This document shows positions 9,950 through 29,254 of a DNA stretch of 40,564 nucleotides, in pieces. Below the pieces are notes generated by a model. The model was given only the letters and a program-made list of their open reading frames with translations. It searched no databases and was not told the origin of the DNA. This DNA is from Bacillota bacterium (GTDB taxonomy: Bacteria; Bacillota; UBA4882; UBA10575). How positions within the stretch are numbered: the first letter of the stretch is position 1; each line of letters starts with the position of its first letter. The position numbers and the translations under genes are program-made. The stretch spans positions 1-40,564 of the forward strand of contig DUNX01000036.1 in the NCBI GenBank assembly GCA_012839115.1, written 5' to 3'.

Positions 9950-11485
9950 ATGAAAGCCGATTGTTTATTGATTCATAAGGACGACAATGTGGTGGTGGCA
10001 TTAAGACCACTGGCCAAAGGGCAGGCGGTTACTGCCGGCGGTGAGACTATTTTCCTAAAGACCGATATCCCCGCCGGACACAAAATTGCCCGCCGCCAAA
10101 TCGGCAAAGGGGAAAATGTCATTAAGTACGGCCACCCCATCGGCCACGCCACTGCGGCGATCCTCGCCGGGGGGTGGGTGAACAGCCACAACCTGAAGAC
10201 CAACCTCTCCGGGACGCTGGATTATTCGTACCGGCCGGAGCGCCTGCGGTCACCGGGCCCGGAGGCGGACCGGGTTTTTCCTGGCGGCGAGGCCAGTTTT
10301 AATGGCTACATCAGGGAAAACGGGGATGTGGGAATCCGTAACGAGATCTGGATACTAAATACCGTTGGTTGTATTAACAAAACAGCGGAGACCATCGCCA
10401 GAATCGCTGATGAACGGTTCAGTGACAAGGGGCGCCCGGAGCCGCGGGGAATCGACGGGGTCTATCATTTTCCCCACCCCTTTGGCTGCTCCCAATTGGG
10501 GGACGACCTCCTGAATACCCAGAAGATCCTGGCCGGCCTTGCGCACCACCCGAATGCCGGCGGCGTGCTGGTCCTTGGTCTCGGTTGTGAAAACAACCAT
10601 ATCGATGAGGTCAAAAAGGTCCTCGGGGATTACGACGAAAGGCGGGTCAAATTCCTTGCCGCGCAGGAAGTTGAGGATGAAACCGCTGAAGCATTGCGCC
10701 TATTGGAAGAACTCGCCGGTTATGCCGCCGGTTTTAAAAGGGAACCGGTTCCCGTCGCCAAATTGAAGGTGGGCTTAAAATGTGGTGGTTCCGATGGCTT
10801 CTCCGGGATCTCCGCCAACCCCTTGGTGGGGGCGTTTTCCGACCTTCTTCTCGTCCGCGGCGGGACCGCAGTCTTGACAGAGATTCCGGAGATCTTTGGG
10901 GCGGAAACGATTCTAATGGCGAGGGCCGAAAGGGAAGAGGTCTTCGCGAAAATAGTGAAGCTGGTGAATGATTTTAAAGATTATTACCTCCGGCACGGGC
11001 AGCCGGTTTATGAGAACCCGTCGCCCGGGAACAAAGCCGGCGGTATCACCACTTTGGAGGAGAAATCCCTGGGGTGTATCGAAAAGGCCGGGTCTGCGCC
11101 GGTGGTGGATGTTCTTTCCTACGGGGAACGCCTGCAGAAAACCGGGTTACACCTCCTGGAGGGGCCTGGGAACGACCTGGTCTCCGTAACCGCCCTGGCC
11201 GCCGCCGGTGCGCAACTGGTGCTTTTCACAACCGGCAGGGGAACCCCTTACGGCGGTCCCGTACCGACAGTGAAAATAGCAACCACTTCCGAACTTTATC
11301 AGAAAAAGAAGCACTGGATTGATTTTGATGCGGGGGAGATCCTGACCGGCATTAGCGGCCTTACTGAACTGGCGGACCAGTTGTTTGCCTATGTCATTGA
11401 CGTCGCCTCCGGTCGGGCTTATACCCGTAATGAGATTAACGGCACAAGAGATGTCGCCATCTTAAAGAATGGAATATGTCTTTAG
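9950..11485 (+). CDS. uxaA: Altronate dehydratase
   Basis: Dehydrates D-altronate to 2-keto-3-deoxygluconate in the galacturonate branch of hexuronate catabolism. The 511-aa protein has an N-terminal SAF-type domain (about residues 1-75, ending near IGHATAAILAGGWVNSHNL) and the UxaA/GarD catalytic part with NTVGCINK, HPFGCSQLG, GLGCENN and KCGGSDGFSGISANPLVG; the conserved cysteines and histidines are metal-ligand candidates. Length is normal for the two-domain enzyme. The last codons overlap the first, partial unit of a downstream 39-bp tandem array, so the 3' end of this gene seeded the repeats. uxaC and the KDG kinase/aldolase are not in the window. Confidence 0.92.
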   Translation: MKADCLLIHKDDNVVVALRPLAKGQAVTAGGETIFLKTDIPAGHKIARRQIGKGENVIKYGHPIGHATAAILAGGWVNSHNLKTNLSGTLDYSYRPERLRSPGPEADRVFPGGEASFNGYIRENGDVGIRNEIWILNTVGCINKTAETIARIADERFSDKGRPEPRGIDGVYHFPHPFGCSQLGDDLLNTQKILAGLAHHPNAGGVLVLGLGCENNHIDEVKKVLGDYDERRVKFLAAQEVEDETAEALRLLEELAGYAAGFKREPVPVAKLKVGLKCGGSDGFSGISANPLVGAFSDLLLVRGGTAVLTEIPEIFGAETILMARAEREEVFAKIVKLVNDFKDYYLRHGQPVYENPSPGNKAGGITTLEEKSLGCIEKAGSAPVVDVLSYGERLQKTGLHLLEGPGNDLVSVTALAAAGAQLVLFTTGRGTPYGGPVPTVKIATTSELYQKKKHWIDFDAGEILTGISGLTELADQLFAYVIDVASGRAYTRNEINGTRDVAILKNGICL

Positions 11486-11720
11486 AGGATGGCGGCCATC
11501 TTAAAGAATGGAATATGTCTTTAGAGGATGGCGACCATCTTAAAGAATGGGATATATCTTTAGAGGATGGCGACCATCTTAAAGAATGGGATATATCTTT
11601 AGAGGATGGCGGCCATCCTTAAGGATGGTATATATCTTTAAGAGATGGCGGCTATCTTCAAGGATTGCGTATATTTTTGGGATGGCGGTCATTTTTAAGG
11701 ATAGCGTATACCTTTAGGAA
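11446..11720 (+). repeat. 39-bp tandem repeat array between uxaA and uxaB
   Basis: About seven copies with exact 39-nt spacing for the first six (homologous positions 11461, 11500, 11539, 11578, 11617, 11656), then a 37-nt step. Copies 1-4 are nearly identical and later copies decay. Copy 1 is the end of uxaA including its TAG. Each unit carries two overlapping palindromes: GATGGC-G-GCCATC and CCATCnTTAArnATGG; in copy 5 the second is a perfect 16-mer, CCATCCTTAAGGATGG. One frame stays open for 48 codons (11476-11622) as a 13-residue repeat, probably by chance. The rest of the gap to uxaB (11721-11872) shows no further structure. Confidence 0.9.
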
Positions 11721-11872
11721 TGGCATTATAATAAGTTGGGTAGCGCAGGCACGGAGGAAACTTGGAAAGCGGTGTATGCCGGGGGAAGCAAGAAACCGGA
11801 AAACTTACAAGCCTGTATGGGTCGGGTGCGGAGACATATGTTGCTTTCCAGGCCACTGTGGAGGGAAAGTGA

Positions 11873-13642
11873 ATGGAAAGGTTAAGCCGGGCGGTACTGG
11901 TAAAAGAAAAAGCACTGGCTGAAGGAAAGGCGCCGGTTGAAGGAGAGGCGCCTGCTAAGGGAAAGGTTTCGGCTGAAGGAAAGATGCCGGCCGGAGTCGC
12001 CCGTATGGCTGCGCGGAGCTTGGCACTGCAGGAAGGTTTACCGGAAAAAGTGATCCAGTTTGGCGAAGGGAAATTTTTGAGGGCCTTTGCCTGCTGGATG
12101 ATCCAGCAGATGAATGAAAAAGGCCTCTTCAACGGCAGGGTTGTCGTGGTCCAACCGCTCCCGGAGGGCTTAATCGATGCCTTGAACCGGCAGGACGGGC
12201 TTTATACCGTAGTTCTGCGTGGCATCGAACAAGGGAAAAAGGTGGAGAGGGTTGAGATCATCTCCGCGGTATCAAGAGGGATCAACCCCTACACCGGTTG
12301 GCCGGAACTGCTCAAGGCGGGTGAAGGAGAAGAGATCGAATTAATCATCTCCAACACAACGGAAGCGGGCATCACCTACCTGCCGGAAGAGTATATTGAG
12401 GGGAAGACCCCCCGCTCTTTCCCGGGGAAGCTGGCCGCCCTTTTGTACCACCGTTTTCAGGCAACCGGGGGTAGCCCGGAAGCCGGCCTGACCATCATCC
12501 CCTGCGAGTTGATCCCTGATAACGGCAAGAAACTAAAGGAGATCGTCCTGCGGCTGGCTACCGAATGGCGGCTGCCTGGGGAGTTTAGCGCCTGGGTAAA
12601 GCAGCATAACCGTTTTTGCAACACCCTGGTCGACCGGATTGTCACCGGTTATCCTGCAGAGGAGACAGAATACTTCCAGTCCTTACTGGGTTACGAGGAT
12701 CCCCTCCTGACCATCGGCGAACCCTTTCACCTTTGGGTCATTGATGGCCCGCCGGAAATAGCTAAGAGATTCCCCCTGGAGAAAGCCGGCTTAAATGTGA
12801 AGCGGGGAGATGTCACCCCCTACCGGGACCTGAAAGTCCGTCTTCTGAACGGGCCCCACATCATGATGGTGGCCGTCGCTTTTTTGGCAGGGGCCGATAC
12901 GGTCCAGGACGTAATGGAGGATGATTTGTTAAGGGATTACATCCGGGAGGGGATAAAGGAGATCTACCCCACCGTTGCCCTGGCCGACGCCGAAAAGATA
13001 AGTTTTGTCGAGGCGGTAATGGAACGCTTCGCCAACCCCCATAACAAACATTATTTGCAAGATATTGCCCTGAATTCCGTCACCAAGTTTAAAGAGCGCC
13101 TAATCCCGGTGCTATTGGCTCATGTGCGCCCACGTGCGCACCGCACCGGTGCGCATGGCAATACGCATACACGCGGTGCCGACCGCACCGGTGAGTACTG
13201 CACAAGTGCACATCGCAATCGCACATCTGGAGAAGCCGGCGCGGAGAATGAACGATTGCCTGAAACAATCCTCCTGACCCTGGCGGGGTTGTTGGTCTTC
13301 AACAGGCCTGTTGATACAGGTACGCACAGCGGCAAAACCGTCCGTCCCGGCGAAGTCGATGACGGGTTACAGGGGAAGCGGGGCGAAAACGGTTATGTTA
13401 TCGCCGACCGCCCGGAGATCCTGGCGGCGTTTGCGAAGGCCTGGAGCAGGTTTGACGGTACAGAAGAGAGCCTTTTCAGTTTGGTAGCGGAAATTCTGGG
13501 TAATATGGGGATCTGGGGGGAGAACCTGCATGGGATCCCCGGCTTAACAAGGGCCGTATCTCGCTATTTAGCTGAGATTATAAAAAACGGCATGCGGGAG
13601 ACGGTGGAGAAACTGTTGCGTGCGCGGTATAAGACAATATAA
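11873..13642 (+). CDS. uxaB: Tagaturonate reductase (altronate oxidoreductase)
   Basis: NADH-dependent reductase interconverting tagaturonate and altronate, the step before UxaA. The mannitol-dehydrogenase-type core is clear: VIQFGEGKFLRAFACWMI, IISNTTEAGI, the FCNTLVDRIVTGYP motif, and KVRLLNGPHIMMVAVAFLAG with the catalytic Lys region. At 589 aa it is about 100 residues longer than typical. The excess comes from a Lys/Glu/Gly 6-residue repeat after MERLSRAVL (residues 14-41) and from low-complexity segments at about 417-458 and 480-505. Ribosome binding site GGAGGGA lies ahead of ATG 11873. Together with uxaA it indicates galacturonate use. Confidence 0.9.
   Translation: MERLSRAVLVKEKALAEGKAPVEGEAPAKGKVSAEGKMPAGVARMAARSLALQEGLPEKVIQFGEGKFLRAFACWMIQQMNEKGLFNGRVVVVQPLPEGLIDALNRQDGLYTVVLRGIEQGKKVERVEIISAVSRGINPYTGWPELLKAGEGEEIELIISNTTEAGITYLPEEYIEGKTPRSFPGKLAALLYHRFQATGGSPEAGLTIIPCELIPDNGKKLKEIVLRLATEWRLPGEFSAWVKQHNRFCNTLVDRIVTGYPAEETEYFQSLLGYEDPLLTIGEPFHLWVIDGPPEIAKRFPLEKAGLNVKRGDVTPYRDLKVRLLNGPHIMMVAVAFLAGADTVQDVMEDDLLRDYIREGIKEIYPTVALADAEKISFVEAVMERFANPHNKHYLQDIALNSVTKFKERLIPVLLAHVRPRAHRTGAHGNTHTRGADRTGEYCTSAHRNRTSGEAGAENERLPETILLTLAGLLVFNRPVDTGTHSGKTVRPGEVDDGLQGKRGENGYVIADRPEILAAFAKAWSRFDGTEESLFSLVAEILGNMGIWGENLHGIPGLTRAVSRYLAEIIKNGMRETVEKLLRARYKTI
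11912..11995 (+). repeat. 18-bp tandem repeat coding the UxaB N-terminal extension
   Basis: Four in-frame 18-bp units plus a partial fifth, encoding ALAEGK, APVEGE, APAKGK, VSAEGK and MPAG. The units are diverged but the register is exact. They are inserted between the usual N-terminal MERLSR motif and the conserved LPEKVIQFGEG start of the fold. Confidence 0.8.
13121..13246 (+). repeat. In-frame GCAC/CGTG-rich insertion in uxaB
   Basis: About 126 bases (42 codons) dominated by GTGCGC, CACGTG, GCGCAC and ATACGC words. They code for an Arg/His/Thr/Gly-rich stretch between the conserved VTKFKERLIPVLL helix and NERLPETILLTLAGLL. A 12-nt direct repeat, ACCGCACCGGTG, occurs at 13140-13151 and 13182-13193, 42 nt (14 codons) apart. 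Confidence 0.6.
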
Positions 13643-17810: not shown

Positions 17811-17831
17811 TCGGATTAATGAAAAAACATC

Positions 17832-17848
17832 GTTCCGCTGAGCGGAAC
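17832..17848 (+). promoter_or_regulatory. Palindromic operator candidate in the iclR-type leader
   Basis: Perfect inverted repeat GTTCCGC-TGA-GCGGAAC, just downstream of the promoter and ahead of the regulator's start codon. The position suits autorepression by an IclR dimer. Binding by this protein is inference. Confidence 0.6.
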
Positions 17849-17866
17849 AAAGATGGGGGTTTTGCC

Positions 17867-18640
17867 ATGAGTGCAAAGCAACCGCTTTTAATAATTGAGA
17901 GAATAGCCCGGATCCTTCAGTTGTTCAATTTTGAAAAGCATGAATGGGGAATTACGGAGATTGCCCAAAAGACCGGTCTCAGCAAGAGTGTTACATATAG
18001 GTTATTGCACAGTATGGAAGAATACGGTTTTATCAAGCAGAATAATGCGACCAAGAAATATGGTTTGGGGATGAGGTTTTTTGAATTGGGCCAGATTGTT
18101 AAAGCGAATATGGATTTGCGGACTGTAGCAAAGGAGGTGATGACGGAGCTAAGCCGCAAATGCAACCAGACGGTTATCCTTTGTATAATAGACCACTTGC
18201 AACAGGTGTGTATTGAAAAAGTGGACGGGCTAAGTATCATCCGGATCGCCTCCGAAGTAGGGGCGAGGATACACCTTCATGCCGGCGCCTCTGCCAAGCT
18301 TTTACTGGCATACCTACCGCCGGAAGAGAGGGAGAGGTGTTACCGGGAATTCGGTTTGCCCCGTTTTACTAAAAAAACCATCACGGACAGAGAGCAACTG
18401 GAAACCGAGCTTTCCCGGATCCGAGAACAAGGCTATGCTTTATCTGTGGAAGAAAGGGACATTAATTTAGCGGCACTGGCCGCACCGGTCTTTGATTACC
18501 GTGGTGAGGTTGTTGCCAGCTTGACCTTGATTGGCCCCAAATGGGATTTTGGTCCGGGACAAGCCCGGGTGTATATAAAAGAAATAAGAGCAGCCGCGGG
18601 TGAGATAAGCGAAAGGTTGGGCTACAAACGGGAAAAATAG
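17867..18640 (+). CDS. IclR-family transcriptional regulator
   Basis: 257-aa regulator. A winged helix-turn-helix occupies about residues 8-60 (ERIARILQLF, GITEIAQKTGLSKSVTYRLLHSMEEYGFI); the IclR effector-binding domain follows (LRTVAKEVMTELSRKCNQTVIL, LHAGASAKLLLAYLPPEERE, EQGYALSVEERDINLAALAAPVFDYRGEVVASLTLIGP). Start ATG 17867 follows GATGGGGG; the in-frame ATG 17819 is too close to the promoter. The likely ligand is a sugar or sugar-acid metabolite. It precedes the fucose-isomerase-like, deoC and deoB genes on the same strand, which makes them candidate targets, though no second copy of its palindrome was found. Confidence 0.9.
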   Translation: MSAKQPLLIIERIARILQLFNFEKHEWGITEIAQKTGLSKSVTYRLLHSMEEYGFIKQNNATKKYGLGMRFFELGQIVKANMDLRTVAKEVMTELSRKCNQTVILCIIDHLQQVCIEKVDGLSIIRIASEVGARIHLHAGASAKLLLAYLPPEERERCYREFGLPRFTKKTITDREQLETELSRIREQGYALSVEERDINLAALAAPVFDYRGEVVASLTLIGPKWDFGPGQARVYIKEIRAAAGEISERLGYKREK

Positions 18641-29117: not shown

Positions 29118-29156
29118 CCGGCGGCTCACGTGTCCGGTGTAACCGCATGTTCCTGA

Positions 29157-29237
29157 GGAAACAAAAGGAGACAGAAGGAGACAGAAGGAGACAAAACGAG
29201 ACAAAAGGCGACAAAAGGGAAGAAAAGGAAACTAAAA
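29157..29237 (+). repeat. 10-bp tandem repeat (GGAGACAAAA type)
   Basis: About seven consecutive, increasingly degenerate 10-bp units: GGAGACAGAA twice (29167, 29177), GGAGACAAAA (29187), CGAGACAAAA, GGCGACAAAA, GGGAAGAAAA, GGAAACTAAA. They lie between the GH115 stop and its terminator, inside the transcribed 3' region. Confidence 0.85.
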
Positions 29238-29254
29238 GCGTTAAAGAGAGCAAG

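Follow-up and report, generated by a model that had tools for sequence, protein, structure and literature searches.

The tandem array that overlaps the 3′ end of uxaA in the window (the whole 40,564-nucleotide stretch of a Bacillota genome analysed here, contig DUNX01000036.1) is very probably a minisatellite that was born from the end of this gene by repeated tandem duplication and that has no demonstrated function. A segment of ~38 bp, consisting of the last ten codons, the stop codon and a trailer of ~8–9 bp, would have been duplicated in tandem, and the resulting units would later have been duplicated again. Replication slippage or short-homology recombination is the most likely mechanism. 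Such duplications would be harmless to UxaA because the first copy retains the whole gene and its stop codon, and the extra copies would then be left to drift.

Layout of the array and its flanking genes

The array occupies positions 11456–11724 and is composed of seven head-to-tail units on the forward strand, five of 39 bp followed by two of 37 bp. An earlier sequence-only reading of this DNA had placed it at 11446–11720 with exact 39-nt steps; the array is real, but its true bounds are those given here, and the step holds for units 1–5 and not for units 6 and 7. Unit 1 (11456–11494) reads AILKNGICL-stop plus 9 bp and holds the last ten codons of uxaA (GCC ATC TTA AAG AAT GGA ATA TGT CTT TAG), and unit 2 (11495–11533) has the same sequence. 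Unit 3 (11534–11572) reads TILKNGIYL-stop and is identical to unit 4 (11573–11611), while unit 5 (11612–11650) reads AILKDGIYL-stop, residues that match the gene end of the sister species' own uxaA. Of the two shorter units, unit 6 (11651–11687) reads AIFKDCVYF and has lost the stop codon, and unit 7 (11688–11724) reads VIFKDSVYL-stop. Compared to unit 1, units 2–7 are 100, 92, 92, 79, 76, and 73% identical, so that the repetition of the last uxaA codons and their stop, with decay by distance from the gene, stands as first described. The identity of the array at a lag of 39 is 0.79, and none of 300 dinucleotide shuffles exceeded 0.41 at any lag. Two half-repeats of ~19 bp can be recognized within the unit, both carrying ATCTTTAAGG in the consensus (unit-by-unit p of 0.01–0.21), and they faintly suggest that a 19-bp step preceded the full unit.

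Two palindromes had been assigned to every unit. Both occur, but not every copy is perfect: GATGGC/GCCATC is complete at just two junctions, 1/2 and 4/5, and has 5-bp arms or worse at the other junctions, and the 16-bp CCATC-TTAA-GATGG is perfect in unit 5 alone (CCATCCTTAAGGATGG), the corresponding sequence in units 1–4 being CCATCTTAAAGAATGG.

The upstream gene, uxaA (9950–11485, forward strand), encodes an altronate dehydratase of 511 aa with SAF, GD_AH_second, and GD_AH_C domains (PF20629 with E 7.9e-102, PF04295, and PF08666), and its last ten codons lie in unit 1. The next gene in the same direction is uxaB (11873–13642, forward strand), a tagaturonate reductase recognized by NF002969 (E 8.3e-172, above the NCBIfam cut-off). 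Profile matches thus identify both genes and confirm the proposed position of the array between them. uxaB itself contains repetitive sequence. Near its N-terminus (11917–11991) there is an 18-bp in-frame tandem repeat (LAEGKAPVEGEAPAKGKVSAEGK), and the sister protein is 6 aa, or one 18-bp unit, shorter there. A low-complexity in-frame stretch at ~13131–13240 (HGNTHTRGADRTGEYCTSAHRNR) is 21 aa longer than in the sister, and the Pfam Mannitol_dh_C match breaks off at this stretch.

Origin and history of the units

In Bacillota, Gemmatimonadota, Chloroflexota, and others, nearly all UxaA proteins end in REIAIFKDGVTL or a close variant, and the terminal peptide AIFKDGVTL is near-identical in UxaA of many phyla. 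Since this C-terminus is conserved across phyla, the array derives from the gene and not the gene from the array, which supports the earlier proposal that the end of uxaA seeded the repeats.

The same peptide accounts for the main palindrome. Written in typical codons (GCC ATC TTT AAG GAT GGC), AIFKDG becomes GCCATCTTTAAGGATGGC, a near-perfect palindrome. The AIFKDG codons of 79 homologues form a mean of 4.8 of 9 Watson–Crick pairs, compared to 2.4 in other 18-nt windows of uxaA, and random synonymous codons for the same residues give 5.3 of 9. The main palindrome is therefore half-formed in array-free UxaA genes; in Alicyclobacillus suci, the exact 18-mer is followed by ordinary sequence past the stop, and the array is absent. 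Because this pairing is present in homologues without an array, the main palindrome simply follows from the peptide. The other palindrome arises where the trailer GGATGGCG meets the next GCCATC.

The units also preserve a record of their relative age. With the ancestral states F (position 3) and V (position 7) taken from family UxaA, both ancestral residues survive in units 6 and 7 only, and the derived residues are distributed as L and I in units 1–5, N in units 1–4, and C in units 1 and 2. Every derived state is a block that begins at the gene, an arrangement that fits 8 of the 5040 possible orders of seven units (by hand count). These residue blocks are nested from the gene outward, and thus the distal units hold older versions of the gene end.

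The sister species (G002, contig JAAYGG010000071.1), whose UxaA orthologue is 89% identical to that of the window (88% over the uxaA body), carries an array at the same place with 2.4 units and a 38-bp period, and its uxaA–uxaB gap measures 123 bp compared to 387 bp in the window. The array is older than the divergence of these species, neither of which has lost it. A cross-species tree of units placed w5 of the window with r1 of the sister, w6 with r3, and units 1–4 with r2 (support of 55–79); as read from this tree, some unit types may be older than the two species, and the order of units may differ between them. The third genome of the genus has no uxaA. Among the homologues examined in other genera, none had an array after uxaA, and no other family member besides the sister carries the unit. 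Weak array-like BLAST matches in two further genomes (G008 and G010) turned out to be unrelated sequence without tandem repeats.

RNA structure and rival explanations

The sequence-only reading gave the units a possible tuning role in termination, mRNA decay, or protein binding. In its strongest form, this would make the array a selected RNA element that controls the uxaA:uxaB mRNA ratio through hairpins that terminate transcription, slow it, or stop 3′ exonucleases, which we consider unlikely. The array lies between two genes of one pathway, is found in two species, and folds with great stability compared to shuffles (z −9.3, and −3.4 for the sister array); the strong fold and the retention of the array in both species since before their split speak against a neutral reading. 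A tandem palindrome is, however, expected to fold better than shuffles. The predicted MFE of −113 kcal/mol equals what neutral decay produces, as simulation along the same pedigree, started from the inferred consensus and of modest power, gave −111 ± 13 kcal/mol with 43% of the runs at least as stable. Hairpin pairs decay at the random rate. Scored against the consensus unit, substitutions in the seven distinct units broke 10 palindrome pairs, compared to ~10.4 under random placement, and the departure from random breakage was not significant in any unit. The one terminator-like site in the array (11612–11629) is at chance level, shuffles giving 0.5 ± 0.8. No Rfam family matched above its gathering score, and the sub-threshold matches were mostly to eukaryotic or viral miRNA models, as is expected for any long hairpin. 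A codon-derived palindrome whose pairs are lost at random speaks against the proposed tuning, and so do the 2.4 units and different period of the sister array, the confinement of the unit to a single locus, the lack of an array downstream of uxaA in other genera, and the frequent birth of gene-end arrays in the genus. A regulatory side effect of hairpins between uxaA and uxaB is possible, and a fold as strong as the one predicted may affect the transcript whatever the origin of the array. A coding role in another frame was rejected: with a 39-bp period, a frame stays open in the window, but the 38-bp period of the sister means that no frame is conserved.

Palindromic units near the gene for a uronate-type regulator could also be clustered operators bound by a transcription factor such as the KdgR-like IclR regulator, whose gene lies at 17819–18640. 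This is highly unlikely, as the encoded peptide accounts for the palindrome, symmetry is lost in the distal units with no compensation, and no promoter-like site was found near the array. When up to 3 mismatches were allowed, the palindrome had 7 matches beyond the array, each with exactly 3 mismatches, compared to 6 for a reversed control pattern. The full unit has no copy elsewhere in the genome. This restriction to one locus and the coding origin of the unit refute the insertion of a REP/BIME- or MITE-like mobile palindromic element downstream of uxaA, despite the palindromic 37–39-bp units in an intergenic gap; the sequence of unit 1 is conserved coding sequence that belongs to uxaA itself. 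Finally, the count of seven could be an assembly artefact, given that the genome is a draft of 148 contigs, that units 1–2 and 3–4 are identical, and that the array may exceed the read length. We regard this as extremely improbable, since the five distinct unit types (w1/2, w3/4, w5, w6, and w7) imply at least five real units, and the array recurs in the sister genome, which was assembled separately.

Gene-end arrays in the genus and related repeat systems

The uxaA array is not isolated: short tandem arrays spanning gene ends are in excess throughout the genus. Tandem Repeats Finder, run on a 610-kb sample of the window's genome, identified 62 merged arrays, of which 12 cross the 3′ end of a gene and one crosses a 5′ end; if the non-coding arrays were placed at random, 5.1 and 5.3 would be expected, respectively. 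Pooled over the genus, 16 arrays lie on 3′ ends and 1 on a 5′ end, or 14 and 1 when the two deliberately chosen uxaA loci are left out. Three genomes of the genus contain 56 non-coding arrays in 870 kb, compared to 6 in 700 kb from five other genera of the family, a difference of ~7–8 times (binomial p 4e-9) in a survey based on crude ORF and start calls, sampled contigs, and draft genomes. In 100 kb of E. coli K-12 there was a single array, within a gene, and a genome of 72% GC (G036) had many arrays, mostly within genes.

Further stop-spanning arrays were found in the window's genome at L110:1661–1784 (39 bp × 3.2, repeating the end of a 353-aa ORF), L112:5910–5979 (15 bp × 4.8, ..YAK-stop), L113:12181–12217 (16 bp × 2.3, ..DTP-stop), L121:2600–2698, and L115:16632–16662. 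For the L110 and L112 arrays, both sister species have the gene end without an array. The excess at 3′ ends could arise because duplication across a stop leaves the gene whole and duplication across a start disturbs the control region. Other repeats were also noted: a 10-bp tandem array in the window (29156–29238, AGGAGACAAA × 8.2), which lies 39 bp downstream of the stop codon of a 1306-aa ORF; short intergenic arrays at L113:12788–12819, L118:5897–5948, and L122:4853–4919 with the common core GAATTCGC (in some copies GAATTCGT), possibly a dispersed motif; and a 40-bp array of 4.8 copies at L123:12899–13113, in which several units contain the palindrome GGGGGCCCC and which no called ORF crosses.

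A tentative extension of these findings is that a process specific to the genus raises the rate of short tandem duplication, and that the harmless duplications spanning stop codons pile up as arrays that record earlier C-termini. Under such a process, exchange between array and gene could also rewrite the protein end; the unit types w5/r1 and w1–4/r2 are common to both species and stand in different order. Candidate losses of repair genes were examined in 16 family genomes, and no genus-wide loss was found among recJ, mutS, and sbcD: recJ and mutS are present in all 16, and a weak sbcD-like match, below the cut-off in every case, occurs in 15 and is missing only in the sister species G002. Non-coding array units in the genus are only slightly more palindromic than controls (p of 0.035 against shuffles and 0.17 against non-coding DNA), and hairpin-promoted slippage is therefore not established.

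Compared to known repeat systems, the array most resembles bacterial minisatellites (VNTRs), which are attributed to replication slippage and have units of tens of base pairs in copy numbers that differ between relatives (PMC2884548). Its seven head-to-tail units of 39 or 37 bp fall within the range of ~10–100 bp, its copy number varies between close relatives (7 and 2.4), and its pattern is consistent with the short-homology slippage described for those repeats. Unlike them, the uxaA unit is the end of a still-functional gene with its stop codon, and ancestral codons remain readable in the older units. REP/BIME elements likewise are palindromic units of ~20–40 bp that follow genes, are sometimes tandem, and can fold in mRNA (PMC3733652, PMC2817692), but REPs are dispersed in more than 100 copies per genome (PMC2817692), whereas the uxaA unit occurs at one locus and derives from coding sequence. 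Mycobacterial interspersed repetitive units (MIRUs) also lie between genes and have short reading frames that meet gene boundaries; they form a dispersed family, with insertion reported at start codons (PMC12548453), and the single-locus uxaA array instead arose in place from the stop-codon region of the upstream gene. As the units are contiguous and have no unique spacers, the array is not a CRISPR, in agreement with the first reading, and with one terminator-like site where 0.5 is expected and no Rfam match, it has the features of neither an intrinsic terminator nor an Rfam element. No account of bacterial arrays seeded by a stop codon turned up in the literature searched, which took in few subscription journals.

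All told, a gene-end minisatellite, most likely formed by slippage, is the best description of the array. It illustrates that competing hairpins between the genes of an operon can come from the ordinary duplication of a peptide with palindromic codons, and it warns that regulation should not be read into structure alone. The excess of gene-end arrays in the genus suggests that tandem duplication is raised in this lineage, which could help to show what determines its rate in bacteria, and such arrays constitute a small fossil record of gene ends.
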